A DNA stretch of 39,314 nucleotides from a virus. Shown piece by piece: positions 128 to 39,109 of the stretch. The position numbers and the translations under genes are program-made. A model generated the notes under the pieces. The model worked only from the letters and a program-made list of their open reading frames with translations. It had not been told where the DNA came from and ran no database searches. Position 1 is the stretch's first letter. The number at the start of each line of letters is the position of its first letter. The DNA is taken from IMG/VR virus record IMGVR_UViG_3300042542_001465, positions 1-39,314 of that record; one strand, 5' to 3'.

Positions 128-237
128 CAGAGGGGGATGAGCAATCCATTAAGCTCAATGTTGAGGAATGGCCATTCATTGAGAACGCCATTGATAAGAT
201 CATCCAAGAAATCGAGAAGCTGGAGGAGAAGCTATGA
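1..237 (+). CDS. Hypothetical protein, 78 aa
   Basis: Small acidic protein of unknown function. Residues about 1-45 look beta-rich, and the C-terminal third (about 54-78) is a charged amphipathic helix rich in Glu and Lys, probably a coiled coil. The ATG follows an A/C-rich leader (TTTAACAACC at the contig end) with no SD sequence. The stop overlaps the next start (ATGA), so the two are translationally coupled. It is part of the early plus-strand operon that crosses the contig junction. The family was not recognised. Confidence 0.8.
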   Translation: MNRITSRITVLPKGEPIFSYQATEISIVDEAAGPFIEIKQFPPEGDEQSIKLNVEEWPFIENAIDKIIQEIEKLEEKL

Positions 238-602: not shown

Positions 603-632
603 GACAATGCTTAAATTTGACTAAACAACAAA

Positions 633-920: not shown

Positions 921-944
921 ATTTCCCGTAGGATCTGATACAAT
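917..944 (+). promoter_or_regulatory. Sigma70-like promoter with predicted leaderless start
   Basis: The -35 element is TTGAAT (917-922), followed by a 16-nt spacer and a -10 element TACAAT (939-944) preceded by TG, giving an extended -10. The ATG at 953 lies 8 nt after the -10, so initiation would fall at or a few bases before the start codon. The -35 sits over the stop region of the upstream gene. Confidence 0.6.
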
Positions 945-952
945 TTATACAT

Positions 953-1195
953 ATGGAAAAGAGATTTGAAAAGAAGGTAAAGAACCCCAAAACGGGTAGA
1001 ACAAAGACGGTTAAGTACGGACAGGCGGGTAAAGCGGCAGATGGCGGCGATAGGATTCGGCCAGGTACGGCCAAAGGCGATGCGTATTGTGCAAGGAGCG
1101 CGAAGATTAAGGGCGACTGGAAGGACGACCCGAACAGCCCGAACAACCTTTCGCGCAAGAAATGGCGTTGCCGTGGCTCAAAATCCATGAAATAA
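953..1195 (+). CDS. DUF6321-like small basic protein, 80 aa
   Basis: Very basic protein with a pattern seen repeatedly in phage genomes: an N-terminal NPKTGR...KTVKYGQ segment, then RIRPGTAKGDAYCARS, then NPNSPNNLS-like spacing and a KWRC end. From memory this matches the family named DUF6321; the role is unknown. The conserved Cys pair (residues 46 and 73 or so) could bind a metal or be structural. It has its own promoter immediately upstream and appears leaderless, unlike its neighbours. Identity of the family is fairly sure; function is not. Confidence 0.8.
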   Translation: MEKRFEKKVKNPKTGRTKTVKYGQAGKAADGGDRIRPGTAKGDAYCARSAKIKGDWKDDPNSPNNLSRKKWRCRGSKSMK

Positions 1196-1200
1196 CCACC

Positions 1201-1371
1201 ATGAGTGCTGGAAAGGGCGACTCACCCAGACGAGTAGATACGAAACGATACAACGAAAACTATGAACGAATCTTTAGAAAAACAACCATCGAACAGGAAG
1301 CTAAACCAGAAGCGGAAATTCAGTTTCGGGTCGGGGCGGAGGAGGAACCAACTCCAAGACAAGAAGATTAA
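1201..1371 (+). CDS. Conserved MSAGKGD-type small phage protein, 56 aa
   Basis: Begins MSAGKGDSPRRVD followed by a Tyr/Asn-rich stretch ending YERIFRK, a signature seen in many unrelated phages. The C-terminal half is Glu-rich and variable. The start at 1201 is chosen because this N-terminus is the conserved part; upstream in-frame codons overlap the previous gene. The leader is TAACCACC with no SD. Its last 110 nt overlap the next gene in another frame. The function is unknown. Confidence 0.75.
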   Translation: MSAGKGDSPRRVDTKRYNENYERIFRKTTIEQEAKPEAEIQFRVGAEEEPTPRQED

Positions 1372-1600
1372 CATCCGAGTCTCCCTCTCGGTGGAGACAT
1401 TTAAGCGGGTGGACAACCTTGCTAAGAGGCTGGATTGCTCGCTCTCAAGTGCGGTCGAGAGGCTAATCCGTACCCAAGAATCGGAGTCTATCGAGCCTAC
1501 ACGGGAGGTGAACTGGGACGAGTACAAGGCCAAGCGGCAGTTCTACCAGCTCACGGATGTTCTGGATGCCTCATTCCGCAGAAGGGGGCGTAAGGCATGA
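1262..1600 (+). CDS. Ribbon-helix-helix (CopG/Arc-like) DNA-binding protein, 112 aa
   Basis: Residues about 36-72 fit a ribbon-helix-helix fold: a short beta strand (INIRVSLSVE), a first helix (TFKRVDNLAKRL), a turn and a second helix (SLSSAVERLIRTQ). The N-terminal 35 residues are basic and low in complexity. The only ATG upstream of the beta strand is at 1262, inside the preceding gene, so a 110-nt out-of-frame overlap must be accepted unless a rare start is used. It probably represses early transcription or acts as an accessory replication protein. The stop overlaps the start of the next gene (ATGA). Confidence 0.72.
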   Translation: MNESLEKQPSNRKLNQKRKFSFGSGRRRNQLQDKKINIRVSLSVETFKRVDNLAKRLDCSLSSAVERLIRTQESESIEPTREVNWDEYKAKRQFYQLTDVLDASFRRRGRKA

Positions 1601-2184
1601 ATACTCTCAAAGGATTTCCAAAACGCTACGAGGATGCCCCAGAAGCCATTGGAGACGATTGGTGGGGTCATTACCGCCTAGCCCTCGCTACAATCGATTC
1701 TGGGGGCATTGTGGTGATGTACGGGACGAATGGCACGGGAAAGACCCGCATGGCCTACGAGCTTGCCAAGAAATGCGTACCAAAGGCCACACATTATTCC
1801 ATCGGCGGCATGGGTTGGAACGCCGGCAAGAAGGAAAGACCCGCCATTTACACCACAGCGGTCAACCTTTTCATGGAGATCAAGGACACATTCCGTCCAG
1901 ACTCGGAGCAATCGGAGCTATCCTTAGTCAAGAAGTACACTGACGCAGGTCTGCTGGTGCTGGATGAGTTCCAGGAGCGGGGGGAAACCCCCTTCGAGGA
2001 TAGGAAGATCACCAGTATTATCGACGCTCGTTATCAGAACGAAAGGCCGACCATCCTCATTTCCAACCACTCGCGGGAGGAGTTTGCCTCCAAGCTATCA
2101 GCGGCTGTGCTGGATAGAATCCGTGAGAACGGGGTTGGATTACACTTCAACTGGACAAGCTACAGGAAACAGGGTAGCATCTAG
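1597..2184 (+). CDS. DnaC-like AAA+ helicase loader, 195 aa
   Basis: AAA+ ATPase of the DnaC/DnaI type, which loads the replicative helicase onto DNA. Walker A is GTNGTGKT (43-50), Walker B is GLLVLDEF (118-125), sensor 1 is Asn157 in ILISNHS, and an arginine-finger region LDRIREN lies near 172-178. At 195 aa it is near the length of the ATPase core and lacks a long N-terminal helicase-binding extension, although residues 1-35 may serve. No phage helicase is encoded, so it probably acts on host DnaB. It is the last gene of the early operon, coupled to the upstream gene by ATGA and followed by a terminator. Confidence 0.88.
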   Translation: MNTLKGFPKRYEDAPEAIGDDWWGHYRLALATIDSGGIVVMYGTNGTGKTRMAYELAKKCVPKATHYSIGGMGWNAGKKERPAIYTTAVNLFMEIKDTFRPDSEQSELSLVKKYTDAGLLVLDEFQERGETPFEDRKITSIIDARYQNERPTILISNHSREEFASKLSAAVLDRIRENGVGLHFNWTSYRKQGSI

Positions 2185-2192
2185 CCAACAAC

Positions 2193-2237
2193 ACCCCCGA
2201 CGCCTCTTGACAAAGCGCACCAACGGGGGTTTCTTTT
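2193..2237 (+). terminator. Rho-independent terminator of the early operon
   Basis: A 7-bp GC-rich stem, ACCCCCG (2193-2199) with CGGGGGT (2224-2230), is followed by TTCTTTT. The 24-nt loop is long. It lies 9 nt after the helicase-loader stop, between two converging operons. A second hairpin, ATGGAC/GTCCAT (2246-2251/2259-2264), lies just downstream and may help in either direction. Nothing else is seen in the gap to 2352. Confidence 0.7.
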
Positions 2238-2352
2238 ATGCAGGAATGGACATATTACGTCCATAATTGCGTACGCTTGCACATAATTCGATGTAATGTA
2301 TGGCATTTCAGCCAATAAGTTGCTAAAATGTGTACTTAATCGTACATATCCG

Positions 2353-2568
2353 TCACTTAATGGAATAGTAATGACCCTTGGAGGTCTTGCGCAGGGCGAA
2401 CTTACCCTCTTTGACTGCGCGGTTCAGCAACCTTCGTGCGCCTTCTACATGCATGTCCGCCTTATCTGCGAACTCATGAGCGGTGAACTCATCGTCACGC
2501 TTCGGCTGCTCGATGGCAGTTAGTTTCAACGCTTGCTCTAATGCGGTCAGTGCTTGTTTCGTTTTCAT
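2353..2568 (-). CDS. Small winged-HTH-like DNA-binding protein, 71 aa
   Basis: Residues about 26-70 read as a helix-turn-helix with a wing: DEFTAHEFADKADMHVEGARR, then LLNRAVKEGKF and a beta hairpin ending in GHYYSIK. This suits a small transcriptional regulator. It is the last gene of the late minus-strand unit and faces the end of the early operon. The ATG at 2568 follows an ACGACAACA leader without SD. The target is unknown. Confidence 0.7.
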   Translation of the reverse strand: MKTKQALTALEQALKLTAIEQPKRDDEFTAHEFADKADMHVEGARRLLNRAVKEGKFALRKTSKGHYYSIK

Positions 2569-2608
2569 TGTTGTCGTTCGGATACATTGGTTTCATGTGG
2601 TCGCTCGG

Positions 2609-3340
2609 CTACAGGAGGCCCATCGGGGAGATCCAGTCGTTGCCTTCCTTGATGACATTCCACGCCTGCCATGCCCCAGTCTTCTCGTTGATGAGTCCAT
2701 ACAGGAAGCCGTTGCGCCATGCTAGTTTAGCAGGAGTGCGGTCGGCATAGGATAGTTGGTCAATGTCGGCAAGGCATCCAACGCTAAACGAGGATTGACC
2801 CTCGATGTGACGAGCTACATAGACATCTGGCTTGTGGACATGGCCGTGGATACAGGCTCCCCAGTTCTCAAAGTGGCTCTTAGCTGGGTACATCGTAGCC
2901 CTAAACCCGTGGATGAACTTTGGCCCACCCTCGGGAAGCGTTAGGTATTTACTGATGTGATACGGAACCCACTTAATCTTGCGCTTACGGAACTCGTCCT
3001 CGGAGGCTTGTGCCAGTTTAGCACAATGTTCACGAAGCATGCCGTCAGCGCACTTGGTTGAGTTCATCCAGATGCGGTCGTCATGGTTCCCAAGGGTGAG
3101 ATAGTCCGGCTTAAACTCATCAAGAAATTCAAGGCCCATTTGATAGTCCTCAGAAATCCCATCTGCTTTCTCCTCTGGGCTACAGCCTCTACGGAGTGGC
3201 GAGAAATCCCATAGATCACCGAGGTGTATCTTGTGGTGTGGCTTCCAACTTTTAGCGAAGTCGAGTATCTTCTTTTTAGCTTCTTCCGAAACTAGGCAAC
3301 CATGGTTATCGGCTGCGACGAGGAACTTTTTGTAGCTCAT
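2609..3340 (-). CDS. Calcineurin-like metallophosphoesterase, 243 aa
   Basis: All five metallophosphoesterase motifs are present: DNH (Asp11, His13), GDLWD (41-45), GNHD (84-87), His144 in FIHGF and GHVH (166-169). These bind two metal ions and hydrolyse phosphoester bonds; the substrate could be nucleic acid, nucleotide or phosphoprotein. The start is set at 3340, not at an upstream GTG-type codon at 3373, because 3340-3337 forms an ATGA junction with the stop of the preceding gene. It sits after the lysis genes, so a role late in infection is possible but not shown. Confidence 0.85.
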   Translation of the reverse strand: MSYKKFLVAADNHGCLVSEEAKKKILDFAKSWKPHHKIHLGDLWDFSPLRRGCSPEEKADGISEDYQMGLEFLDEFKPDYLTLGNHDDRIWMNSTKCADGMLREHCAKLAQASEDEFRKRKIKWVPYHISKYLTLPEGGPKFIHGFRATMYPAKSHFENWGACIHGHVHKPDVYVARHIEGQSSFSVGCLADIDQLSYADRTPAKLAWRNGFLYGLINEKTGAWQAWNVIKEGNDWISPMGLL

Positions 3341-3633
3341 TGTTTTAGTTTTGTTTGTTGGAGTTTTCCCCACGCTGGGAAAAACAGGTGATCAAGGCAA
3401 CGCACAACACCCTCCTCCACTTCCTCGAAAGGTTTGCAATGCGCGATGCCTCCGATGGCGAAGGCGGCGTGCATCATTTCATGGCGTAGGGTGTCTGTCA
3501 TTTCCTTGATGTGACCTTTCCTAAGGCTTATCGTGAGATCGTCAAGCGAAAAACTACCGAAATCTTCAAGATTTTCGACAATCGCAATCTTCACCCGCAA
3601 CCCACCGATATGGATATGCTTGGGAATGTTCAT
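3337..3633 (-). CDS. Putative zinc metallopeptidase (HExxH), 98 aa
   Basis: Contains HEMMHA within a helix (about residues 51-57), the zinc-binding HExxH core of small gluzincin-like peptidases found in many phages, with a conserved downstream Glu-rich helix (EEVEEGVVRCLD). The start at 3633 makes an ATGA overlap with the upstream HNH gene; an alternative ATG at 3648 would add five residues. The substrate is unknown. A protease role in virion maturation or host takeover is inference only. Confidence 0.72.
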   Translation of the reverse strand: MNIPKHIHIGGLRVKIAIVENLEDFGSFSLDDLTISLRKGHIKEMTDTLRHEMMHAAFAIGGIAHCKPFEEVEEGVVRCLDHLFFPAWGKLQQTKLKQ

Positions 3634-4211
3634 CGCGTAGCTTGGCATCGGTTGAGGATTCCAGCGTATTCGCCATGCAATTCGATTGCTTTTTGTCTGC
3701 GTATTTTCACGGCATCCTCAATGTTTTTGTATCGGCCAAGGAACAGCGTGACACCCTTGTGTCCAATTTGAGCCATCCATAGCTGTGTTCTTTTACACCA
3801 TGTTATCCCTGTATGTCCAGACTTGTTGTTGGATTGAAGGCTTTTGTTGCAAGCGTTTTGCCTTCTGCTTGCTATCCTTAGATTGGATGGGTGGTTATTT
3901 GTTCCGTCACCATCAATGTGGTCAACCTCTTTATCCGTTGGATCAAATCCATTAGTCATCGCAAATATGATTCTATGGACTGGATACACAACTTGATTGA
4001 CCTTCACTAAATAAAATTTACATCCATCTGCGTTCGTAGCCAAATGCCCAGCCATTTTCCCAGAATCTCTCGTCTGAGTCATTCGCCATCCCCTGTTTGT
4101 TTTAAAATGACATCTTGGCCTTTTATTCCAGATGACCCCTGATGGAGATTCATTTGATATGGTGAAGCATTCATTTAAGTAATGCACATCCGGCAGCTTG
4201 TTCGCTTTCAT
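3630..4211 (-). CDS. HNH homing endonuclease with AP2-like domain, 193 aa
   Basis: Free-standing HNH endonuclease. The HNH_3-type core contains His79 (VHRIIFAM), Asp97-His98 (EVDHIDG) and Asn110 (SNLRIAS), and residues about 131-165 resemble the AP2 DNA-binding domain common in such genes. It would cut DNA at a target site and spread by recombination. The ATG at 4211 is preferred over a GTG at 4220 because a strong promoter places the transcript start at about 4212. It is inserted between the endolysin and the metallopeptidase genes. Confidence 0.88.
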   Translation of the reverse strand: MKANKLPDVHYLNECFTISNESPSGVIWNKRPRCHFKTNRGWRMTQTRDSGKMAGHLATNADGCKFYLVKVNQVVYPVHRIIFAMTNGFDPTDKEVDHIDGDGTNNHPSNLRIASRRQNACNKSLQSNNKSGHTGITWCKRTQLWMAQIGHKGVTLFLGRYKNIEDAVKIRRQKAIELHGEYAGILNRCQATR

Positions 4212-4218
4212 TGAAAGC

Positions 4219-4246
4219 ACTATAAATCAAGCGCATTTATTGTCAA
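4219..4246 (-). promoter_or_regulatory. Sigma70 promoter of the HNH gene, predicted leaderless
   Basis: On the minus strand there is a perfect -35 TTGACA (plus 4241-4246), a 16-nt spacer and a -10 TATAGT (plus 4219-4224). Seven nt separate the -10 from the ATG at 4211, so transcription should begin right at the start codon. The promoter lies in the short gap after the endolysin stop. CCCACTTGACA around the -35 also occurs upstream of the HNH gene at 18015. Confidence 0.75.
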
Positions 4247-4253
4247 GTGGGTA

Positions 4254-4850
4254 TTATCTCGTGCTTTGGAAATGCATCGCATCCCTCCCAATTGACCAAC
4301 CAAGTCCATTCCAGCCTTCTCTAGCAAAAATCTCCATTATTTCGATGGGCATGTTGGATCTGCTGGGCCAATGCTCGCGGTTGCCGTTCGTGCTGGGGGC
4401 TAGGTCGATAGCTGCCCCTCTAGCGTGCAGGGAGGGCAGGGAACCACCTCTCATTGGTCGGTTGTTATAGACCCCACCATATTCCTTCAGCACCCAAGCG
4501 TGGGGCGTTTTAGCGATGTTCTCCAGAATGCGGCGCAGGCTTGGAGCTACCTTGTGGTGACACCTAATGGACTTAACATTCTTGCCGTCATAGCGGATGT
4601 CGAGGTCATTGACGGCAAGGTTGACCAATTGGGACTCATCTCCCGGTCGTCCGTAGAACTTGGTGAGTGCCGCTTGATCCTGCGTGGGCCAAGGGTGGTC
4701 TTTGGGCATGAGACTGCGGAGGTATTCCTTGCACTTGGCTACGGACTTCTCCCCCCAGAATCCATCTGGAGTGGCTCCTACACGCTTCTGAAGCTCAATG
4801 ATCTGGTGGTATTGCATATGGTTGAATGTTACACCATAGGTCAAGACCAC
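4254..4850 (-). CDS. M15-family peptidoglycan peptidase (endolysin), 198 aa
   Basis: The C-terminal half shows M15 D-Ala-D-Ala carboxypeptidase-like zinc ligands: His142 and Asp149 in SLHARGAAIDL, and His193 in DAMHFQ. Residues about 15-45 (LQKRVGATPDGFWGEKSV) resemble a peptidoglycan-binding repeat. It would cleave the peptide cross-links of the host wall at lysis. The 4850 start is GTG with a weak AGTAGG upstream; an internal ATG at 4817 is the alternative. It follows two tiny membrane proteins, forming a lysis cassette. Confidence 0.87.
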   Translation of the reverse strand: MVLTYGVTFNHMQYHQIIELQKRVGATPDGFWGEKSVAKCKEYLRSLMPKDHPWPTQDQAALTKFYGRPGDESQLVNLAVNDLDIRYDGKNVKSIRCHHKVAPSLRRILENIAKTPHAWVLKEYGGVYNNRPMRGGSLPSLHARGAAIDLAPSTNGNREHWPSRSNMPIEIMEIFAREGWNGLGWSIGRDAMHFQSTR

Positions 4851-4860
4851 CTTAACCTAC

Positions 4861-5037
4861 TCACCGCTTTTTAAGCAGCTGGTAGGCAGAAATCAAGCCA
4901 ACAATGATGCCGATTCCAAGCGAGGTTATTCGCATTCCCCACTCGATTTGCTCTTGCAGGGAGGTGACAAGGCCGAGAACGGGTACTACGCTGCCCACAA
5001 TGCCGTGTGCTGCGTCTCTAGAGGCATCTGCGCTCAT
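4861..5037 (-). CDS. Small membrane protein, holin-like, 58 aa
   Basis: Short gene directly upstream of the endolysin. The N-terminal half is polar, with one hydrophobic stretch near residues 13-22 and a clear transmembrane helix near 37-51 (SLGIGIIVGLISAY), followed by a basic tail LLKKR. Its ATG overlaps the stop of the preceding small membrane gene (ATGA at 5037-5034). Position and topology suggest a holin or a holin partner; sequence alone cannot decide. Confidence 0.72.
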   Translation of the reverse strand: MSADASRDAAHGIVGSVVPVLGLVTSLQEQIEWGMRITSLGIGIIVGLISAYQLLKKR

Positions 5038-5186
5038 TTGTTGTCCCGTGCTTTGATGAGGCCGATGCCAGCCGTTACAGCGGCAAATGCGCCCATGAAG
5101 TCGGGTGCTCCACCTTTGAGGACTTGAACGCCCACATTAGCGAGCGTTGCAACGATAGTTAAAATGCCGAGTGCGGTAGTTTTCAT
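5034..5186 (-). CDS. Small membrane protein, holin-like, 50 aa
   Basis: MKTTALGILTIV start followed by an N-terminal hydrophobic segment (about 5-22), a short loop with GGAPDF, and a second hydrophobic segment (about 31-44) ending GLIKARDNK. Two-helix proteins of this kind are common beside phage endolysins. It is likely one half of the lysis membrane system with the 58-aa gene it overlaps. The leader is AGAATAATACAT with no SD. Confidence 0.72.
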   Translation of the reverse strand: MKTTALGILTIVATLANVGVQVLKGGAPDFMGAFAAVTAGIGLIKARDNK

Positions 5187-5191
5187 ATGTA

Positions 5192-5491
5192 TTATTCTGT
5201 TGGAATTATATCGGACGGAGAAATTGTTACGCGAGCGGACATTCCACCGAGGTCGTCAATGATTTGAGTGAACTCTGGGAAGTCAGCAGGCGTTGAGGGC
5301 GGGTTGCCACGGAGCGGGGTGTCGAGGGTCTGGTCGTCACACGGGACAAACACCAGTCCAGAGTACATTCCAGCAACGATAGGATACTGACCCGGTAGCC
5401 AGAAGACTGGAAGCCCACGGGATGTCTGAGCTAATGCCACGGCATCATTTGCCGCTTTCGCCTGTTCTTGAGTGACTGCGAATCCGATCAT
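5192..5491 (-). CDS. Hypothetical protein, 99 aa
   Basis: Begins MIGFAVTQEQAKAAND with a short Ala/Gln-rich helix, followed by a Pro/Gly-rich, probably beta region. There is no signal peptide and no recognised motif. Coupled by ATGA to the upstream LamG-like structural gene, so it may be its chaperone or a tail accessory protein. The family was not recognised. Confidence 0.72.
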   Translation of the reverse strand: MIGFAVTQEQAKAANDAVALAQTSRGLPVFWLPGQYPIVAGMYSGLVFVPCDDQTLDTPLRGNPPSTPADFPEFTQIIDDLGGMSARVTISPSDIIPTE

Positions 5492-11157: not shown

Positions 11158-11790
11158 TCAGTAAGCCCATTTAGCATCTCCAAGGATTTCTGTCGAGTCT
11201 TGCCACCATTCGTCCCATTGCTCGTTTGTAGCAACTTCCCAGTTAGGGATGCGTTCTGCTGCACCTTCTTTAACTAGGCTTATTGGAAGCCATTTTAAGC
11301 GGTTGTTTGGATAGATTGCAATTTGACCATTCGATAGTTTGACCACATTACCCTCCTTGTGTTCCTCTAGAAGTTCCACATCACCAATGTCCAGCGTCCC
11401 AGCGGCTTGATTCTCAGGCAGAAAGTCAATCGTAAACCAGTAATGCCCAGTCATCGGAGCGCAACCTTTATCCATGTTTACTAGCATCGGAACATCGCAA
11501 AGCTGACTCTTCTGCCAGACCTCGATGCTTCCAGACAAGCACTCCCATAGTTGCACCTTGTGGAGTGGTAGGTCAACCTGATCTCCATCTGGTTCGTAGT
11601 GGTAGATGCACTGAGGCGGAATCTTATCAAAGCAAGCAGCGTATTTATCCACCCATACTTGGAAGCAGAATGGACGATTTCGCATAGCACGAACGCTGAC
11701 TAGCCACGCTGGTTCATACTCCGTCTCACTACCGCCAAAGGCATCGCAACGGACATAGACTCTACACTTCGGTAGGTTGGCGTTTCTCAT
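11158..11790 (-). CDS. Conserved hypothetical phage protein, 210 aa
   Basis: Rich in Trp, Tyr and Cys, predicted globular alpha/beta. Segments include RVYVRCDAFGGSETEYEPAW, MTGHYWFTIDFLPENQ and a C-terminal NEQWDEWW. No known catalytic motif was recognised. Coupled to the upstream 76-aa gene by ATGA (11790-11787). It may be a structural or assembly protein because it sits in the portal cluster; the function is unknown. Confidence 0.7.
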   Translation of the reverse strand: MRNANLPKCRVYVRCDAFGGSETEYEPAWLVSVRAMRNRPFCFQVWVDKYAACFDKIPPQCIYHYEPDGDQVDLPLHKVQLWECLSGSIEVWQKSQLCDVPMLVNMDKGCAPMTGHYWFTIDFLPENQAAGTLDIGDVELLEEHKEGNVVKLSNGQIAIYPNNRLKWLPISLVKEGAAERIPNWEVATNEQWDEWWQDSTEILGDAKWAY

Positions 11791-14860: not shown

Positions 14861-17494
14861 TTAGTAGCCTCCAGCTCCTTGTCTTGTAGCAAGATTTCGG
14901 GTTTCGTCAACATGATCTATTCCTGCAATAGCGGCGTAGCGCAGAACATCAATGCAATTTCCGCACACCATTGGCTTCTTATTTCGGCGGACAACAAGCG
15001 TACCGTTTGATACTGTAACGCAATAAACCATGCCAGAGTATAGGGTCTTCTCAAGCAGCATTCGCTTATCCTTGGTTGTAATTGTGGCTTTTTTGCCGTG
15101 CCTTTCTCCAAGCATGTACAGGGGCATTGTACCAACAACTTTCCGCCCATGAATAATTCCTCCACTATATCCAGCATCTCTGGTGTATATCGAGCTACAT
15201 GGCTTTCCTAGTTTCTGAAGCAGCTCTTGAATGTCGTCCACTAGCCCAAGTGATGCCGTGGCGTACTTGTGGCATTCGCTTCCTTTGTCAATCCACCCAT
15301 CTCCAAGAACCAACGACTCCCACAGCCTTTCAAGGGCCTGTCTAGGCATATTCAACACATTCCTTGGGATTCGTTTTTGACCCGAATTGCCAAGTGGATG
15401 CAGCAACTCCCACAGCTTCTTGCTACTTACAACATAGCTAGTATTCCTGTAGGCCCATACGAATCCTAGAGAATCAAGCAGTTTCTCTATCCTTTCACAT
15501 TTCTGGGGATTTGCTGATTTTGATTGTGAAATGTAAACCGAGTACCCTCGGCCAGGTATTTGGATCTTTCCGCCACGCGACCCCGTAGAACTACCTTCAG
15601 AGACAAACCAACCAATAAACTCGGCCCAGTCGGCTTCGGCTACCCATTTACCATCCCAAAGCTCAATCATCGAGCATTCTTCTTCTCGCAGTCCATTAGT
15701 GCAGATTGGGAATGTGTCCTGCCTGTATAGATCCTTTGCCAGTCTAAATGTTAACTGCGACTTCTGCGGGTAGACCAACATCCTATGGTTCGGGGTCACT
15801 TTGAAATCAATGCTGTGGCTATGCGCCTCATACATAAACCCATCGTAGTAATTCTCAACATACCCGATTGGCTGTTGGAACTCCATATATCCATCTGGAG
15901 ACATTGTCGCTACCTTTAAATCTCTAGGCAGATCTGAAAACTTAATCCATCCATTCTCTGTTAGAACCTCAGTCTCTGGGTCGTAGCAATCTTTCCACGC
16001 CTCCTTTAAACCACCATCACCCGTGTACTCAGACAACGCTTGGATAATGTTCTCACACTCGGAAGAGACATAGAAATGCGGTCGGTTGACCGAATCTGCG
16101 GGTCTAGTGGTATCCCATGACATCTTGCCAATAAGTGCCTGCAACCCATCGTCGATGTCTAACCCTGGAGCTGGAATACAAACCATGCCAGCATCATTCA
16201 AATCCTCGATAATAGAGGATGCCCCATCCGCTGACTGGTACTTGGCAGCTCCAAGACGAGGGTCGATCAGCCTCTCGAAGATCTTTTCGTCACCCTCAAG
16301 CTCGGCAATTAAGTCCATGTAGTCACGGATACCAAAGCCCTGCCCCTTAGCCCCTTGTCCTGGCATCCACTTGCCACCCTTCCACTCAGCCCAGTCACCT
16401 ACATCAACACCCGGCCACTCACGATATACCCAAAATGTACCAGACGCATCCACAGCAATCCAAGCCATAAACCAATTCTTCGCACCCGCTGGGTCAATAA
16501 TCTGATAGCGAGTAACATTCGTAGTTGGGATCTCTGATGGCTGGACAACATTGACTTCTTTATTGAACTTAGGAAACTTGGTGGCGTGGGACTTAACTGG
16601 AACCCCGTACGCGCGAATTAGAATCTCCTCCCGAGGCCTTCCAACTAGGGTCTCCTTGATTCGCTCGTAGCCACCGAAAGGGTTATCCTTGCTATGGAAG
16701 TAGTGGACGCTGGCATTGCGCTTTTTACTCCGTTGGACATAGGGTACAAGCTCGCCGCCTAGAAGCTCGGCTTCTCGGCTTTCTATGCTAGTAGCCCCAT
16801 CTAAGTACTCTTTGATCACCTCAGTCCATCCATCGATAGGAGTAAAGGTTACGAGCATTTTAGAATTTCTCGTAGCTAATCGGAATCTTAGCGTATTAAG
16901 CAATTCGGGGCCGCCTAGATGCTCGTCCAACCAAACTCCTATATTATGCCAGACAGGTGTCCTTGAACCTAATTCAGCACCCTCAAGAATTGTGTCATTA
17001 TTCGCGTAAGCAGCGTATGTTTTAAAGATAATCTGACTACCATTTGGTAAGATAAGCGAGTTATCCGTAAACCCGGTTTTCTTTTTGTATGAGATGTAAG
17101 TTGATGAGGAGGTGTGTTTTTGTTTTAATTCCTTTGGAAGCCAGTGCCAAATTAACGATTGTTGTTGGCGGATTGAAACCTCCGCTGTTTGAGAAAAACA
17201 AAATATCTCAGACCCAGCATTCTCAACTGCAGCACGAACTACACAATAACTAGCAAAGAAACTTTTGCCCGACCTGTTCCCACCACTTACCAAAATTTCA
17301 TTGTGATTCCCTAACTCCTTCTCCGCGAGTTCCCAGTGTGGAAGCCTAAATGCGTAGTTGTAAGGATCTTCCTCCGAGTTTTTAATTGCCTCATGGTAAA
17401 TGTAGTGAAGATTGACCAAGTCGCTTGGTTCCATTACGGCTATCTCCTCGTCAGTGGGAGGCTTCAAGATAGGATGTTTACGCCATTCTAGCAT
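14861..17494 (-). CDS. terL: Terminase large subunit with intein, 877 aa precursor
   Basis: DNA-packaging motor ATPase and nuclease. The ATPase has Walker A SGGNRSGKS (70-78) and Walker B GVWLDEH (186-192). The RNase-H-like nuclease shows Asp334 (IIDPAG) and Asp411 (LIDPRLG), and the last acidic motif CIDVLRY (847-853) follows the intein. Residues 503-846 are an intein, so the spliced protein is 533 aa, a normal length. The start overlaps the stop of the upstream HNH gene by 7 nt. Confidence 0.93.
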   Translation of the reverse strand: MLEWRKHPILKPPTDEEIAVMEPSDLVNLHYIYHEAIKNSEEDPYNYAFRLPHWELAEKELGNHNEILVSGGNRSGKSFFASYCVVRAAVENAGSEIFCFSQTAEVSIRQQQSLIWHWLPKELKQKHTSSSTYISYKKKTGFTDNSLILPNGSQIIFKTYAAYANNDTILEGAELGSRTPVWHNIGVWLDEHLGGPELLNTLRFRLATRNSKMLVTFTPIDGWTEVIKEYLDGATSIESREAELLGGELVPYVQRSKKRNASVHYFHSKDNPFGGYERIKETLVGRPREEILIRAYGVPVKSHATKFPKFNKEVNVVQPSEIPTTNVTRYQIIDPAGAKNWFMAWIAVDASGTFWVYREWPGVDVGDWAEWKGGKWMPGQGAKGQGFGIRDYMDLIAELEGDEKIFERLIDPRLGAAKYQSADGASSIIEDLNDAGMVCIPAPGLDIDDGLQALIGKMSWDTTRPADSVNRPHFYVSSECENIIQALSEYTGDGGLKEAWKDCYDPETEVLTENGWIKFSDLPRDLKVATMSPDGYMEFQQPIGYVENYYDGFMYEAHSHSIDFKVTPNHRMLVYPQKSQLTFRLAKDLYRQDTFPICTNGLREEECSMIELWDGKWVAEADWAEFIGWFVSEGSSTGSRGGKIQIPGRGYSVYISQSKSANPQKCERIEKLLDSLGFVWAYRNTSYVVSSKKLWELLHPLGNSGQKRIPRNVLNMPRQALERLWESLVLGDGWIDKGSECHKYATASLGLVDDIQELLQKLGKPCSSIYTRDAGYSGGIIHGRKVVGTMPLYMLGERHGKKATITTKDKRMLLEKTLYSGMVYCVTVSNGTLVVRRNKKPMVCGNCIDVLRYAAIAGIDHVDETRNLATRQGAGGY
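14957..15988 (-). mobile_element. Intein with LAGLIDADG homing endonuclease in TerL (344 aa)
   Basis: The N-terminal splicing block starts at Cys503 (CYDPETEVLTENGW), and a block-B-like VTPNH lies at 567-571. The C-terminal blocks read YCVTVSNGTLVVRRNKKP and then VCGN, ending at Asn846 with Cys847 as the +1 nucleophile. In the middle, FIGWFVSEG (626-634) and LWESLVLGDGW (724-734) look like the two LAGLIDADG helices, so the endonuclease seems complete. All catalytic splicing residues are present, except that the penultimate residue is Gly where His is more usual. Confidence 0.9.
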
Positions 17495-24436: not shown

Positions 24437-25243
24437 TTAGTCTTTCATATAAGTTGGAATACTTTGGTCAAACCAAGTAACTCGTTTTGAAATGTTTTCA
24501 ATTGTGCAGTCCAGCCTTGGGCAATGCACAAATTTAGGGGCCGACTCCCTACGGTCAATACAGGCGGTACAGGCGTGAACATAGTCACAATTATGTGTCC
24601 GGTCAACCTTCTCTGACCACTTGCCATTTACCTTTTCATATCGGCTAGTCTGGATTGGTACATTGTTTTCCTCACAGTATTGGAACACATCATCGTGCGT
24701 CCAATTTTTCATTGGGTAGAAGGCATTGCACTGTCCGGGGTTGATACGCACATCTACGCGCACCCCAGCGTCTCCCCCGTAAATTGGGTCAGAGTCGCAG
24801 AGTTTGTGACCAACCAGCATCCCATCCCATCCTGCGATAATGCCGGGGTTCTTTGGACGGTTGTAAATATCCATAGCGCACACCCACGGCTTACCTTCCT
24901 CCATAGGCGTAATGCCAGTAGGGCAAGTCATGTCGGTGTTGTCAAAGATATACTTGTTCTGTACTTCAAACTCATCACCAGTCTGCTGAAACGCCGAGAA
25001 TGTTGGATGCCATGTGTACACCTCAAGACCCCATTCCTCAATAATGCGATTCTGGAATGCGTATTTGCTTGGTTGCCATTGTTCTCGATAAAATACAATT
25101 GGGACTTTTACGCCCACTTTTTTGAACACAAGGTCAAGAAGTGCCATGCTATCCTTGCCACCGCTCCAAGCAAGGCACGGTTTTTTAGAGACACTTAAAC
25201 ATGTCTCAATATTCTTAATAGCGTTCTGTATTTTTTTGAACAT
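24437..25243 (-). CDS. PAPS-reductase/adenine-nucleotide hydrolase-like enzyme, 268 aa
   Basis: The PP-loop SGGKDS (27-32) marks the adenine-nucleotide alpha-hydrolase superfamily that includes PAPS reductase and DndC. The ECGLH end of assimilatory PAPS reductases is absent; instead a Cys cluster (CDYVHACTACIDRRE ... CPRLDC) near 219-248 could hold an iron-sulfur cluster, more like DndC-type enzymes. It may act in sulfur transfer, nucleic-acid modification or host sulfur metabolism. It is embedded between internal virion genes, with a one-base TAATG overlap upstream. Confidence 0.85.
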   Translation of the reverse strand: MFKKIQNAIKNIETCLSVSKKPCLAWSGGKDSMALLDLVFKKVGVKVPIVFYREQWQPSKYAFQNRIIEEWGLEVYTWHPTFSAFQQTGDEFEVQNKYIFDNTDMTCPTGITPMEEGKPWVCAMDIYNRPKNPGIIAGWDGMLVGHKLCDSDPIYGGDAGVRVDVRINPGQCNAFYPMKNWTHDDVFQYCEENNVPIQTSRYEKVNGKWSEKVDRTHNCDYVHACTACIDRRESAPKFVHCPRLDCTIENISKRVTWFDQSIPTYMKD

Positions 25244-26527: not shown

Positions 26528-27306
26528 GCAGAGCGGATAAGGCAGCCAGACATGTATGTAACATCAGTTCCTGTTGTCACACTAACAGTTCCACCACTTT
26601 GTTGGACTGCATACATTTCAATATAATCCGTTGTCCCATTACAGTAAACTAGATCACTGACGTTAGATGCAAATGTTTGAACATTTGTGTGAACTGCCCC
26701 AGAGTGAACTGAACCGTTTTTGTATATTTTAACCTGCAAGTACTGAGGTGCAGCCGAAGAGTAAACGGTGCAATTTATTTGGTAATACCCAGCAACTGTC
26801 GGAGTAAATCTACTTGAGTCAAAATTTGAATTTGTATCAAAATTTTCAGAAAGAAGGTTCACCTTTGCAATTACATTATTGCTTAGAGATGTTACTGTTG
26901 ACGCAAAAGCCCTAAACGCAGGCCCATTCCCAACCACATTCGATGCAAGCTTTACTTGAGTAATGTTAGCATCCGCAATCTTCGCGGTAGTTACATTAGA
27001 ATCAGCGATTTTTGCCGTAGTTACATTAGAATCAGCGATTTTTGCTGTGGTCACATTGGAGTCAGCAATTTTTGCGGTGGTTACATTGGAGTCAAGTATT
27101 TTTGCGGTGACAACCGAATTGGAGGCAAGCTCATTAGAGGTAATGCCACTTGCAGACACGGCAAGTTTGCCCGGAGACACAACCTGCAAGGTAGTTCCTT
27201 GGATCGCATCGCTGGTAAATGTAGTATCATCAATAATGTTATTCAGTTTGGCACTGGTAATCGTATCAGTCCCAGAGAAAGTGTAGGTTGTGTTTACAAC
27301 GCCCAT
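26524..27306 (-). CDS. Tail fibre with repeat shaft and C1q-like head, 260 aa
   Basis: The N-terminal part (1-60) is a likely attachment region. Four perfect or near-perfect 10-residue repeats TTAKIADSNV lie at 76-115, flanked by two degenerate ones, and would form the fibre shaft. Residues about 130-260 (FRAFASTVTSLSNN ... FTPTVAGYYQINCTVYSS) resemble the trimeric C1q/TNF-like head that often binds receptors. It is the best receptor-binding candidate. The leader is CACAAAAATAAC without SD. Confidence 0.8.
   Translation of the reverse strand: MGVVNTTYTFSGTDTITSAKLNNIIDDTTFTSDAIQGTTLQVVSPGKLAVSASGITSNELASNSVVTAKILDSNVTTAKIADSNVTTAKIADSNVTTAKIADSNVTTAKIADANITQVKLASNVVGNGPAFRAFASTVTSLSNNVIAKVNLLSENFDTNSNFDSSRFTPTVAGYYQINCTVYSSAAPQYLQVKIYKNGSVHSGAVHTNVQTFASNVSDLVYCNGTTDYIEMYAVQQSGGTVSVTTGTDVTYMSGCLIRSA
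26932..27111 (-). repeat. 30-bp tandem repeats in the tail-fibre gene
   Basis: About six 30-bp units, four nearly identical, encode the TTAKIADSNV shaft. The units differ at third codon positions. Such arrays can change copy number by slippage or recombination and alter fibre length. Confidence 0.85.
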
Positions 27307-27307
27307 G

Positions 27308-29785
27308 TTATTTTTGTGATAGAATTTGTCTGTTAGTGATGGAACCCGCCACTTGAATAGAGTGGATCTTAGGTGAACCGATAGTCCTTGTCAATGTGAT
27401 AGTCCCAGTATAGCCGCGCTGTCCACCAAGTCTGCATCGGATGCTTGCGGTTTCAGCCTCGCCGGGACTACTAGGTGATAGAATCTGCCCGCCAAGGAAT
27501 GTGGTGGTGGTTCCTATGCTTTCTGCGGAATCTGGGTCTTCAGTAGCAAACGCAATGTCGTACTCGCCAGTTTCTCCAGCCAAGTTCTGCATTTGCACTT
27601 GGGCATCAGTAAACCTCTTGCGCTCAAGGGTCTTGAAGTCGTATCCACGACTAGTCACATACGAGTTAATCGTTGGGGTGACCACATCCGTGTCCTCATT
27701 CGTAACGCTCAAGCGGTCTACAGACGAGTCAGAAGCATCAATCTGGTGCAATCCACCATTTGCACTAACGGCATACAGGTTATTACGCACCCCAGCACTT
27801 GCCGTGATAAAGTTCTTGATCAAAAACCTAGAATCTCCATAGGTATCCAGCGATTCCCATCCCTTGTTCAAGAAGTTGTAGATCAAAACCGCGTTATTTC
27901 CACGGGCATCATTTCCTCCAGCTACAGAATCCAACGGGACTGCGATGTAATAGCGGTTGTTAAAGTAAACCGCCACCGAATCACCAGCAAGATTCTTGTT
28001 GATGCGGTCGATGTACGGCTGGATGTTCTTGGAAAGTGGCTCCTCTGTGCCACGAAGGTTGTAATCGTTAAGGAAGGTAAGCCCGTAAATACCCTCGTCG
28101 GCCAAGAATAGCATGTTGTTAGCCTGCATGACCACCGTCTTGCGAGCCAAACACCCAACCTCACCAGTAAGTTCCTTTACCACGGTGTCAGACAGGCTTC
28201 CTTGGGTCTGTGCCACAAGATGGATGCTATTGCGGTTCAAAACCACCAAAGAATCATCGTAGAACCCGTGCATCGCCACCACATAGTCGGCAGTACCACC
28301 AGTAATACGGAACTGGTTCTCGATTTGGTCAAAGGTTGTAGTGTCCAGCAGGTCAGAAACCGCAATCTCGTCAGAAATCTTCCTGCTAGTGTAGACTGGT
28401 GCGCTAAAAGTGCCAGATTGGGAGTAGTAGAACGGAACGAACAACCTGCGCTGGAAGTAGGTAGCCCAGGGCGCACCCGGTTGGTGCATGAATCCACCGC
28501 CTTCTGTGAACCTGCCGCCAAACTCTACCTGCCCAGTGCTTCCGCTAGCCGATATGTTGGCGACTGGCGCAAGGAACTGAATGTTTGTTGTGCTCGCTGA
28601 TGTTACTTGGAATTGTTTACCAACAATTGTGGTAAACTCTGGGATGGTTGTCTCGTAAATTACAACTACATCACCAGCAAAAATTGTTAAGTTGCCAGTA
28701 ATCGTCAAGGAAACCAAGCCGCTCGATACCGTAATGTTGTTGCCGCTTGTAACAAATGTTTGTGGCTGGGTGTAAGCACCGCCGGGGGACAGGGTGAACC
28801 CATCAGTCATTGTGGCTACCGTGGTTACAAATGTGGTGCTAGTGGAAATCCCAGATGCCACAAAGGTAAATGAGTCTTGGTCGACAATTGTTGCTACCGT
28901 GAATGTCCCATTAGGAGGAGTGCCACTAGTAAGCCCAGCGATAACCACGGATGACCCAGCCGTAAGTCCGTGTTCACGAACTTTCATTGTCACCACGGTA
29001 TTTGGACTGGCGGTCGCGTTGGATGACGCAGAAAGAATAGCCCTTCCATTAGGATACCACTCAAGAGCTTGTTGCCCATCCCGCATAATCATCACCTTGT
29101 CGAAGCACTGCAACATATCGCAGTTACTCCCAACGGTGGCTCCCACGGGATACGGGATAGTCGTTGCCGTGTAGGGTGTCGTGGAAAGGTCGATCTTCTT
29201 CGCCAGAGTTTCTAGCGCAACGATGATGTATTCCTTGTTGGACTCGTTAGGGTCAGAGAACATGCAGGATGCCAACACATCGCTGGCGGCCGCATCGTTA
29301 ATGTCGATCTGTGTAATCCTTGGAGTCGCCCCTAGTGCCACGGCAGTCACGCCAGTAACAGGGAAGGTCAATGTGTCCACGGTAGCCGCAGTCACAGCCT
29401 TGACCCCATTGTTATCCGTGCCAGTAAAGGTAATTCCGCTAACCGTAAGGTTGCCGGCCACCCCAATAGCCAACCCATGCCCAACCACGGTAATCGTTAC
29501 CACATTCGCGGAATACGACACAGCAGTAATAGCCAAGTAGAATGGGCTAGGAAGGATGTGGAACGGAAGGTTCAACGGAGTTCCTCCAGTAGTCAGCACA
29601 GGGCTAACAGAGACTACGCTCTTGCGCGGCCTCCAGAAGCCCTCCATGCGACCATTAAGGCTTTCCCTTACCTCACCTGGTTCCAACTGGTTAAGTTGCA
29701 ATCTCTGGTTCACACCAAAGAATCCACGGTCGTTATCGCTGCCGATAGCGTCATCTAACCCACCAGTGGATCGGAACTGCGACAT
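27308..29785 (-). CDS. Large tail (tail-hub/tubular-like) protein, 825 aa
   Basis: Long beta-rich protein starting SQFRSTGGLDDAIGSDNDRGF with repeated beta modules, for example VVGHGLAIGVAGNLTVSGIT and VREHGLTAGSSVVIAGLT, which look like two copies of an Ig-like insert (about 85-165 and 265-345). The later part (FGGRFTEGGGFMHQPGAPWA ... LADEGIYGLTFLND) resembles podoviral tail nozzle/tubular proteins with a propeller-like fold. Structural assignment is fairly safe; the exact homologue is not. Confidence 0.72.
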   Translation of the reverse strand: MSQFRSTGGLDDAIGSDNDRGFFGVNQRLQLNQLEPGEVRESLNGRMEGFWRPRKSVVSVSPVLTTGGTPLNLPFHILPSPFYLAITAVSYSANVVTITVVGHGLAIGVAGNLTVSGITFTGTDNNGVKAVTAATVDTLTFPVTGVTAVALGATPRITQIDINDAAASDVLASCMFSDPNESNKEYIIVALETLAKKIDLSTTPYTATTIPYPVGATVGSNCDMLQCFDKVMIMRDGQQALEWYPNGRAILSASSNATASPNTVVTMKVREHGLTAGSSVVIAGLTSGTPPNGTFTVATIVDQDSFTFVASGISTSTTFVTTVATMTDGFTLSPGGAYTQPQTFVTSGNNITVSSGLVSLTITGNLTIFAGDVVVIYETTIPEFTTIVGKQFQVTSASTTNIQFLAPVANISASGSTGQVEFGGRFTEGGGFMHQPGAPWATYFQRRLFVPFYYSQSGTFSAPVYTSRKISDEIAVSDLLDTTTFDQIENQFRITGGTADYVVAMHGFYDDSLVVLNRNSIHLVAQTQGSLSDTVVKELTGEVGCLARKTVVMQANNMLFLADEGIYGLTFLNDYNLRGTEEPLSKNIQPYIDRINKNLAGDSVAVYFNNRYYIAVPLDSVAGGNDARGNNAVLIYNFLNKGWESLDTYGDSRFLIKNFITASAGVRNNLYAVSANGGLHQIDASDSSVDRLSVTNEDTDVVTPTINSYVTSRGYDFKTLERKRFTDAQVQMQNLAGETGEYDIAFATEDPDSAESIGTTTTFLGGQILSPSSPGEAETASIRCRLGGQRGYTGTITLTRTIGSPKIHSIQVAGSITNRQILSQK

Positions 29786-30039
29786 TATGCGCGGTAACCA
29801 ATAACAACACCAGATGTCACGGTAAAGCTGTTGATCGTACCACCAAGGCCAAACCCAGCAGGGATCGTAATGGTGATCAACTTGGAACCAGAATCCGTAA
29901 GGTTAGGCGCAGAGATTGCACTCAACACCGTGTCGTTCACAAACTGAACCCAACGGAACGGGCCTACAGCACTGCCACCAGCGTTGTACACTTGTCCACC
30001 ACCTTGACCCTGAAGATCGTATGAATCGCCTCTAGGCAT
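29785..30039 (-). CDS. Small structural protein, 84 aa
   Basis: Gly/Ser-rich N-terminus followed by a beta-rich domain (FRWVQFVNDTVLSAI ... ITITIPAGFGLGGT). It is the first gene of the late minus-strand unit and is coupled to the large tail gene by a TAATG overlap. Possibly a tail or head-fibre accessory; the family was not recognised. Confidence 0.65.
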   Translation of the reverse strand: MPRGDSYDLQGQGGGQVYNAGGSAVGPFRWVQFVNDTVLSAISAPNLTDSGSKLITITIPAGFGLGGTINSFTVTSGVVIGYRA

Positions 30040-30110
30040 AATATAAATAAGTTATCAAGCACAAGTCCATCTCGCGCTCACACAACCAATTACCACAATC
30101 CCACACATAA

Positions 30111-30116
30111 TGTCAA
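30111..30116 (-). promoter_or_regulatory. Possible -35 of the late tail operon
   Basis: A perfect TTGACA on the minus strand about 70 nt before the first late gene. No good -10 is seen at 16-18 nt (GTAATT/TAATTG only), so a phage- or host-encoded activator may be needed. Confidence 0.3.
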
Positions 30117-30467
30117 CCATAAACACAAATGTTACCTATCTAGCACATTTAAGCACAATACACTAGACCTATCCACAAATAACCCCGAACGGGAACTGCC
30201 CCATTAACGCCGAATCACACCAACATGCTCCGATGGTAGGTAACTGCCCCCTTTGGAAAATTTTAAATCTGGCAGGTCATGGATAGGAATTGTTACAAGT
30301 TGTAAAGTCGCGACCCCCTCCCCCCGTCATACCTTAGCGTGGCGCTAATGATTAGCCTGGTGTTCAAGGGAACATGTTCATGTGTGCAATGCTGGCAATT
30401 TAAACGCTTGTTTGAATGTGTCGCTTAAGTCATGCGCTTGGCTTGTGAGTGTGCCATTCCTTGCCCC

Positions 30468-30543
30468 GTGGAACATTCCCGTGGAACATGTACAGCTGTG
30501 CCAATGGCCGTCGACTTGTGTTCCACGATGACCTTGTGGAACA
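30468..30543. repeat. GTGGAACA iterons (parS-like half sites)
   Basis: GTGGAACA at 30468-30475, 30481-30488 and 30536-30543, and its inverse TGTTCCAC at 30519-30526. The first two lie in a 13-bp tandem (CCCGTGGAACATT). The last pair forms an inverted repeat with a 9-nt spacer. TGTTCCAC plus GTGGAACA are the two halves of a known parS-type palindrome, here separated. Confidence 0.65.
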
Positions 30544-30606
30544 TGCTGATTTACTGGGATTCATTGCCAATAGTAATTGTTCACACTTATTCACAGCTTT
30601 CAATCG

Positions 30607-30634
30607 TTGACAAGATTCGCGACATGACTATAAT
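30607..30634 (+). promoter_or_regulatory. Consensus sigma70 promoter
   Basis: Perfect TTGACA (30607-30612), a 16-nt spacer and perfect TATAAT (30629-30634), directly after the DnaA box. It points toward the early operon, with a predicted start near 30641, leaving about 450 nt of untranslated RNA before the first gene. Small hairpins CGTAA/TTACG (about 30645-30659) and GACCT/AGGTC (about 30692-30707) follow. Confidence 0.82.
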
Positions 30635-30970
30635 ACGCTCCAAGCGTAACCCCCTTACGTAAGCCATCACGTCCTAACGGGATGTGCGCACGACCTCAAA
30701 CAAGGTCATCCATTCATCAAGCCTCGATCATGATTCAAGCGCGGTGATTGTTTCTTTCAAGTGATGGAATGGATTCTGTAGCTATTCAATCATTGCTCTT
30801 CCTTCCTTGCTTTGCTTCCTTCCTAACCCCTAACGGGAATTGCTGGCGGCTTGGAAGCTTGGCACCCTAGCGGTTTGCTTGTCTCATGGGCTGAAAGTGT
30901 GGCCATGGGATGAAAGTTTTCTCATGGCATGGAATTGAGGGAAACGCTTGGAAATAAAGGGTTTCGTGGG

Positions 30971-30999
30971 TTGTCAACACTATTCGATAAATTTATTTT
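30971..30999 (+). promoter_or_regulatory. Candidate second early promoter
   Basis: TTGTCA (30971-30976), a 17-nt spacer, then TATTTT (30994-30999). It lies 94 nt before the first early gene and within the AT-rich block. Confidence 0.45.
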
Positions 31000-31092
31000 T
31001 GAGATATTGGCAAATTTTGCTGGCAATCTTTGTCCGTTATGCGATTGTCTCACCAGTTGCGAGCGCAACGCTAAACAATAACACCACGATAA

Positions 31093-31407
31093 ATGACAAC
31101 AAAATCAGATAAGCCAAGCCACGCGTCACTCCACTTCAAAGGCCAGTATCGCCCACTTCACTCCGAGGCTGATTCCGTAAGCGAAGCTGTGAGCGAGCTA
31201 TTAAAGAAGGTCAAATGCGATGAGATTGAGAAAACCTTGCGTGACTTGCTAGCAGACTTTAACCGAAGCCGAAAGGCTGGTATCGGTATTTGCTCCGCAT
31301 CAAGTCAGCACGGATATACTTGTGTAACGATTTCAGACTATCCACGAGACCGCTGGCTTGATGAATTGACGGATCAGATGCCATGCAATCCATCGCTTTC
31401 CTATTAA
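31093..31407 (+). CDS. Hypothetical protein, 104 aa, first early gene
   Basis: Mixed alpha/beta protein with a helical centre (SVSEAVSELLKKVKCDEIEKTLRDLLADF) and a GICSASSQHGYTCVTIS segment. No recognised motif. The first gene after the candidate origin, so probably expressed very early; host-takeover functions are common in this position but nothing specific can be said. The leader AACAATAACACCACGATAA lacks SD. Confidence 0.7.
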   Translation: MTTKSDKPSHASLHFKGQYRPLHSEADSVSEAVSELLKKVKCDEIEKTLRDLLADFNRSRKAGIGICSASSQHGYTCVTISDYPRDRWLDELTDQMPCNPSLSY

Positions 31408-34009: not shown

Positions 34010-34197
34010 AAAAACAAACGATCCTGGCTTTGGCTATCTTTGGTCACCTGTTCCTTTTCCTGTTCGTGGATTCGCTCTTTGAGGCTCCCACAAAGTGGAA
34101 AATGTGGGCATTCTACGGATCGTCCCTGCTATCCGTTGCAGTCTGGGCGGCGTATGTGATCCACGAGGACGACAACCCGAAAGGGGGCGCGGCATGA
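34006..34197 (+). CDS. Two-helix membrane protein, 63 aa
   Basis: Two predicted transmembrane helices (TILALAIFGHLFLFLFVDSL, and FYGSSLLSVAVWAAYVI), then an acidic tail. The start at 34006 makes the ATGA junction and follows GGAGAGGGGGG. Early location suggests a host-envelope role and not lysis; the function is unknown. Confidence 0.65.
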   Translation: MKKQTILALAIFGHLFLFLFVDSLFEAPTKWKMWAFYGSSLLSVAVWAAYVIHEDDNPKGGAA

Positions 34198-34550
34198 AGG
34201 TTAATTGGAAACTCTACGAGGATACCGAGGCCGACAAGTTCGCGTTTTTGGTTCGCATTGTGGCGGAGGTTTTTTCCGTCAATCCAGAACAAATCCTTTG
34301 CCGCTCACGCTTTGCCCGATGGGTTGAGCCAAGGCAACTTGTGGCGACCATTTGGAGCGAAAACCACTCACTCCAAGAGACAGGCTACAGGCTCGACCGG
34401 CACCATGGCGCGGTCATGCATGCACGGGAGCGCGTTAGGTTCCTTATCGAGCACGACGACCGATTCGCAGACAAGGTGCGCGAGTGCCTCCAACGCCTAA
34501 TAAGCGAAGCCCCTATGGAAGAAGAAACCCCGAAAGAAAAAATAGCGTGA
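34194..34550 (+). CDS. DnaA domain-IV-like DNA-binding protein, 118 aa
   Basis: Residues about 15-85 follow the DnaA C-terminal (domain IV) pattern: FLVRIVAEVFSVNPEQILCRSR, ARWVEPRQLVATIWSENHSL, ETGYRLDRHHGAVMHARERV. In DnaA the DH-T-V helix reads the DnaA box; the equivalent here is DRHHGAV (68-74). The AAA+ domain of DnaA is absent. With the DnaA box near 30587 and the DnaC-like loader at 1597 it suggests origin recognition. The start at 34194 fits the ATGA junction. Confidence 0.75.
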   Translation: MKVNWKLYEDTEADKFAFLVRIVAEVFSVNPEQILCRSRFARWVEPRQLVATIWSENHSLQETGYRLDRHHGAVMHARERVRFLIEHDDRFADKVRECLQRLISEAPMEEETPKEKIA

Positions 34551-38914: not shown

Positions 38915-39109
38915 ATGAGCGTATCACACAAACTAGAATCATGGCTCCTCAAGGGGAAGACCATCACCGCCCTGCAAGCCCTTAACAAATGGGGATGCAT
39001 GAGGCTATCGGCACGGATCAACGAGCTTCGCAATGCGGGGTTCCCGATCCTTACGGACAGTGTAAAGCAAAATGGCAAGATCTTTGCTCGCTATCGTCTT
39101 GCCGCTTAA
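38915..39109 (+). CDS. Small winged-HTH protein, 64 aa
   Basis: LESWLLKGKTITALQALNKWGCMRLSARINELRNAGFPI followed by a two-strand wing (TDSVKQNGKIFARYRLA). This is a small helix-turn-helix domain seen in many phages; it may regulate transcription or help replication. The start lies 4 nt after the previous stop. Confidence 0.75.
   Translation: MSVSHKLESWLLKGKTITALQALNKWGCMRLSARINELRNAGFPILTDSVKQNGKIFARYRLAA

Follow-up and report, generated by a model that had tools for sequence, protein, structure and literature searches.

A conserved early/late control region of a DnaC-encoding phage carries half-parS sites and DnaA-type boxes and may contain a replication origin

We analyzed a circular phage genome of 39,187 bp, represented by a virus record of 39,314 nucleotides with a 127-bp terminal overlap (the whole record is hereafter called the window), and found that the 1-kb gap between its divergent gene blocks is a real, conserved control region. 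In the reading that we prefer, and that we hold with somewhat less than even confidence, this gap is the early/late control region of a phage with its own DnaC-like protein, perhaps linked to an origin as in phage lambda, and provided with sites for host DnaA and host ParB. The gap may contain a replication origin, though probably not one that works in the way proposed by an earlier reading made from the letters of the window (the sequence-only reading). Every element that this reading named was found where it placed it, and its interpretation is supported in part.

Anatomy of the Intergenic Region

The gap (30040-31092, no strand assigned) contains no conserved open reading frame, can be aligned in 21 relatives and, as the sequence-only reading had described, lies between a leftward (29785-30039) and a rightward gene (31093-31407). 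The leftward block codes for an 84-aa protein, an 825-aa protein and tail-fibre-like proteins, the large terminase, the major head protein and an endolysin, while the rightward block codes for a protein with a DnaA domain IV, RecT, an exonuclease, and Holliday resolvase-like and DnaC-like proteins. Relatives were obtained from IMG/VR with the DnaA-like and DnaC-like proteins as queries, and together with the window they gave an alignment of 22 gap sequences. This alignment revealed a mosaic, in which a C-tract, tandem GTGTTC repeats, a sigma-70 promoter and a leader block are nearly constant, and variable cassettes, one of them the GTGGAACA array described below, are located between the GTGTTC repeats and the promoter. 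Few elements of the gap are as conserved as the C-tract GACCCCCTCCCCCC (30312-30325, no strand assigned; it reads as a G-tract on the minus strand): CCCTCCCCCC is present exactly in 19 of the 22 sequences, and CCCCC[T/G]CCCCCC is found in distant phages as well. The gap also has two imperfect tandem repeats of ~15 bp, GTGTTCAAGGGAACA and TGTTCATGTGTGCA (30360-30388, plus strand), which, as read from the alignment, most relatives carry in 2-4 copies at the same place, and an imperfect palindrome, TTTAAACGCTTGTTTGAA (30399-30416, no strand assigned), which takes the form AAACGATCGTTT in relatives, distant ones included. Rfam gave no match in the window. Seven relatives have an additional ORF of ~230-290 aa in the gap, to the left of the C-tract, that by eye resembles an HNH homing endonuclease, and in L047 (G003) the contig begins with a second, inverted copy of the gap and the DnaA-like gene (positions 1-5200), a probable assembly chimera.

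DnaA-Type Boxes Abut the Early Promoter

A sigma-70 early promoter (TTGACA-16-TATAAT, a 12/12 match; 30607-30634, plus strand) is conserved in position in the relatives and is followed by a conserved untranslated leader of ~450 nt. Within the leader there is a short predicted hairpin (30664-30686, plus strand), obtained by folding the window and accompanied by paired changes in the aligned relatives, and a block (30738-31030, plus strand) whose conservation is similar to that of coding sequence and flanking genes, with no clear covarying RNA fold; a consensus RNA structure for the leader was discarded as weak, with double changes at 2/16 pairs. Beside the first early gene we found the AT-rich stretch that had been noted earlier (30975-31030, no strand assigned; 71% AT over 56 bp), which may be an unwinding element and is ordinary for this genome, its best 40-mer being only the ninth least stable site. 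The stretch contains, just before the first early gene, the tandem motif TTGGCAAATTTTGCTGGCAAT (31007-31027, plus strand). The tandem TTGGCAA..TGGCAAT pair is unique within the window genome, and ATTGCCA/TGGCAAT is the only 7-mer present in all 25 of the gaps examined, near and distant.

A tandem pair of DnaA-box-like elements, TTGTTCACAC TTATTCACAG, with 10-bp spacing (30577-30596, plus strand; motif search and alignment) ends ~10 bp before the −35 hexamer. Both boxes, TTATTCACA at 30587-30595 and the near-match TTGTTCACA 10 bp upstream at 30577-30585, had been recognized by the sequence-only reading, which missed that the pair abuts a perfect early promoter. The single exact box is not significant, because the 3 copies of TTATNCACA in the window (1.2 expected) were equaled or exceeded in 11/100 shuffles. 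The position of the box, in turn, recurs: in 13/22 gaps the 60 bp that precede the −35 box contain TTRTNCACA, vs. 20/5,170 background windows (0.39%), and this in at least two clearly unlike cassettes, one with a direct pair and the other with a single inverted box before an A-run. A third box form is found in one relative in which the promoter is less well aligned. It is this recurrence in the alignments that argues best for a DnaA-type box that matters, and its place beside the promoter suggests that DnaA may act as a transcription regulator, as at the lambda promoters near ori, rather than through an oriC-like cluster of boxes.

An Array of Half-parS Sites Upstream of the Promoter

The GTGGAACA array comprises four copies within 76 bp, at 30468-30475 (plus), 30481-30488 (plus), 30519-30526 (minus) and 30536-30543 (plus strand), of which the third and fourth form the inverted repeat TGTTCCAC-9-GTGGAACA. 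These are the four repeat elements reported earlier, recovered here by a motif search and a cluster test, and the window has no copies elsewhere. No other non-simple 8-mer reaches 4 copies within 80 bp, and the array can be considered non-random because none of 100 dinucleotide-preserving shuffled genomes had any such cluster. It is located ~65-140 bp upstream of the −35 box. The sequence-only reading had put forward the synteny of the repeats in relatives as a check. The array keeps its spacing of 12-13, 38, and 17 bp across near and distant phages; GTGGAACA was found in only 7/22 gap sequences, most near relatives lacking the array, and the tandem TTGTTCACA/TTATTCACA pair is likewise present in only 7/22. 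The array was found in the more distant phages by a search with its inverted-repeat core.

Rather than being iteron-like, GTGGAACA contains half a parS site. The heptamer GTTCCAC, present four times in the 76 bp, is a half-parS known from Pseudomonas, which may not be the host of this phage; such half-parS sites are bound by P. aeruginosa ParB (PMC10419367), and TGTTCCACGTGGAACA is the parS listed for P. putida (PMC7022226). Five distant loci each have one perfect 16-bp copy of TGTTCCACGTGGAACA upstream of the array, and the window has half-sites only, with no match to a full TGTTCCACGTGGAACA-type parS at up to 2 mismatches. Searches for the ParB_N and HTH_ParB domains (PF02195, PF17762) were negative for 10 phage records, the window among them, and positive for control genomes. 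No phage DNA-binding protein among those examined co-varies with the array, and in a limited survey that included incomplete contigs no gene co-occurred only with it. Because of the identity with half-parS and parS and the lack of a detected ParB in the phage records, we infer that host ParB is the leading candidate for binding the array. An uncultured member of the Opitutales has four direct copies of GTGGAACA (L257 7990-8130, contig 2 of G083), upstream of a 176-aa gene that by eye is putatively of the ORF6N type; they are the only such pairs in that genome, whose assembly has no exact parS, and they lie beside this gene and away from parB, so another regulator could own the motif.

Several candidates were discarded along the way. 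A probable ribbon-helix-helix protein overlapping the loader gene (1262-1600, plus strand; RHH_1 E=0.004, below the cut-off, with a conserved segment) was rejected as the array binder, as its segment is invariant in phages with and without the array, and small ORFs inside the array are broken by 1-nt indels in two relatives, as read from the alignment. A Bacillus match to the array pattern looks like chance. TTGTTCACACTTATTCACAG also matched in L098, L104, L105, and L107, outside the group, and was treated as a coincidence since in L104, whose record has none of the tested window genes, it falls inside a long ORF, putatively a T7-like RNA polymerase, and the other three share the L104 flanks around it.

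Exact TGTTCCACGTGGAACA sites gave at least 120 matches in IMG/VR vs. 10 for a control palindrome of the same composition. They are thus at least 12-fold commoner, and mostly located on contigs without ParB_N (49/50 tested records, many of them short fragments). The 119 loci among the matches listed fall into 97 nucleotide clusters, and the sites are rarer than random positions inside ORFs of at least 150 aa (53/126 vs. 83/119). Given the excess over the control, parS-type sites may extend beyond the phage family of the window.

A Stand-Alone DnaA Domain IV and a DnaC-Like Loader

The 118-aa protein that had been called DnaA-domain-IV-like (34194-34550, plus strand) scores 37.5 bits against PF08299, above the cut-off of 31.5, and the assignment is shared by NCBIfam, below its full-length cut-offs, by PDB sequence comparison, and by Foldseek, whose best matches are DnaA domain IV/DNA complexes (3pvp and 1j1v, probability 1.00). 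When aligned to 1j1v, the positions of E. coli R399, D433, H434, and T435, which we take to be those that contact the DnaA box, read R, H, H, and G, two of the four being kept. Domain IV alone is without the parts of DnaA that open DNA. No relatives of the protein were found in cultured phages (tblastn) or in the bacterial genomes searched. The DnaC-like AAA+ helicase loader claimed earlier is encoded late in the early gene block (1597-2184, plus strand; PHROG 7e-41), DnaA-like and DnaC-like genes co-occur in distant relatives too, and, as had also been stated, neither a DNA polymerase nor a replicative helicase is found among the proteins scanned. A domain search identified in addition a winged-helix protein (HTH_39; 38915-39109, plus strand).

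The sequence-only reading had the small DnaA-like protein recognize both the boxes and the "iterons," and our comparison speaks against this. Nearly all close relatives have exactly the same recognition segment, LCRSRFARWVEPRQLVATIWSENHSLQETGYRLDRHHGA, and two show a few substitutions in it, while the presence of GTGGAACA and TTATTCACA varies, and L036/G008 keeps the exact array together with a DnaA-like homologue that is only 37% identical. Because the protein is constant and the elements are not, it is unlikely to have its main sites in GTGGAACA and TTATTCACA; the ribbon-helix-helix protein is dissociated from the array in the same way. If a constant phage protein has a site in the gap, the TGGCAAT-type motif is a more suitable candidate for it than GTGGAACA.

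Evidence for an Origin

Cumulative GC skew, another check that the sequence-only reading had named, has its minimum at 30834, inside the gap, and its maximum at 11128, near the antipode (11240). Such a profile would fit an origin within the gap or close to it, though gene direction and expression partly confound the skew. The minimum lies in or beside the gap in 4/5 near relatives, the fifth being a probable chimera, and in the window and most of these genomes the maximum is near the antipode rather than at the switch in gene direction; in two distant genomes (G024 and G025) the minimum is ~2.6 kb inside the early block. Fourfold-site skew in same-strand late genes differs between the two replichores (+0.29 vs. 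+0.03, gene-permutation p=0.0012), a test weakened by the expression bias of the capsid genes and by a replichore boundary picked from the data, and on the leftward half the synonymous-site skew of the 26-30 kb stretch is opposite in sign to what an origin here would give. The early genes gave no iteron cluster, and the proteins scanned gave no match to a lambda O-like initiator. The gap has one exact and one near box instead of the conserved cluster of several boxes of an oriC-type origin, and departs from an iteron-type plasmid origin in that the array is of mixed orientation and does not co-vary with phage DNA-binding proteins, and in that no Rep-like protein was found. On balance, the skew makes an origin in or near the gap plausible.

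Discussion

In the reading that we prefer, rightward early transcription would start at the sigma-70 promoter and run through the long leader, host DnaA would most likely tune that promoter from the boxes directly upstream, transcription would probably activate an origin in the region or close by, as in phage lambda, and the phage DnaC-like protein would load host DnaB there. The four GTGGAACA elements would form an array of half-parS sites to which host ParB most likely binds, instead of being iterons of the phage DnaA-like protein, and the latter would probably bind other sites or compete with host DnaA. We regard as quite improbable the original proposal that the gap is an origin where this protein recognizes TTATTCACA and the GTGGAACA iterons and recruits the DnaC-like loader and host DnaB. 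A true domain IV that retains the R399-equivalent arginine, a loader whose gene accompanies it into distant relatives and the skew minimum in the gap are what such a model would predict; a near-invariant recognition segment facing variable boxes and GTGGAACA, an array that persists with a strongly diverged homologue, the H and G at the D433 and T435 equivalents and the missing DNA-opening parts are not.

Rather unlikely, in our judgment, is a gap that is purely transcriptional, made of early promoter, operators and leader, with the origin elsewhere, for example inside the early block. At odds with it are the skew profiles of the window and most near relatives, with a minimum in the gap and a maximum near the antipode, and early genes in which the search found no iteron cluster, even if the perfect promoter, the modular upstream cassettes, the long leader, the unremarkable AT-rich element and the displaced skew minimum of the distant relatives would all be expected. 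Possible, but doubtful, is that the array is an operator for a phage or host repressor and that its match to half-parS is coincidental: its distance from the −35 box would suit an operator, the one look-alike array found in bacteria is followed by a putative ORF6N-type gene, and the window is without a full parS, and against these stand the perfect parS beside the array in five distant loci and the limited survey in which no co-varying phage gene or DNA-binding protein was found. A bolder idea, to which we give a fairly low probability, is that a phage family without ParB uses host ParB, via parS and half-parS arrays beside an early promoter and a possible origin, to position, load or regulate its replicating DNA, and that its stand-alone DnaA domain IV may also work jointly with the separate DnaC-like AAA+ protein in the manner of a split DnaA.

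In lambda, DnaA sites lie near the promoters of ori-lambda and transcription is stimulated by DnaA (PMC3985674, PMC8203912). The gap resembles lambda pR/pO - ori-lambda in its strong early promoter, the DnaA-box-like sites near it, the predicted transcription through the region, and the helicase loader in the early block, but it is non-coding and no O-like protein was found, whereas lambda has an O initiator with iterons inside O. As in the chromosomal parS and half-parS sites of Pseudomonas, GTGGAACA holds GTTCCAC, and distant relatives carry the exact TGTTCCACGTGGAACA; here, however, the sites are on a phage with no detectable ParB, in a fixed array of four half-sites and, in the window, with no full palindrome. 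The pair of DnaA boxes and the AT-rich stretch 400 bp from it recall bacterial oriC, but there are only two boxes, they are not kept in all relatives, and the phage has no complete DnaA. The phage protein shares with DnaA domain IV (PF08299; 1j1v, 3pvp) its fold, a score above the Pfam cut-off and the R399 equivalent, and unlike full DnaA it lacks domains I-III and has H/G as D433/T435 equivalents. Phage C75C1 (OQ984151) has a 54%-identical major capsid protein, a circular 39.5-kb genome and divergent early/late blocks, but an O/DnaD-like initiator and a DnaB helicase instead of the DnaA-domain-IV and DnaC pair. Parts of the region are thus like known systems (lambda-like promoter/origin control, DnaA domain IV, half-parS), and what makes it a new variant in the material searched is the way these are combined and the occurrence of parS-type sites on phages in which no ParB was detected; the literature search covered open-access papers with a few queries and may have missed earlier reports. 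If host ParB binds the arrays, phages would co-opt the chromosome segregation machinery by site DNA alone. The stand-alone DnaA domain IV, which is accompanied by a DnaC-like loader as far as the distant relatives, offers a testable case of phage meddling with DnaA-controlled initiation.

Finally, some features concern the late block. The gap was discarded as a packaging site, as the large terminase gene (14861-17494, minus strand) lies far from it. This gene carries an apparent intein, in which ~500-583 and 813-864 match inteins from other phage proteins and 725-772 is a LAGLIDADG domain, and the large terminase of the distant G024 aligns without the insert. A 30-bp tandem repeat of 4.8 copies (26966-27109) is found in a tail-fibre-like gene, and the late block also codes for PAPS-reductase-like and ferredoxin-annotated proteins (24437-25243 and 11158-11790, both on the minus strand).
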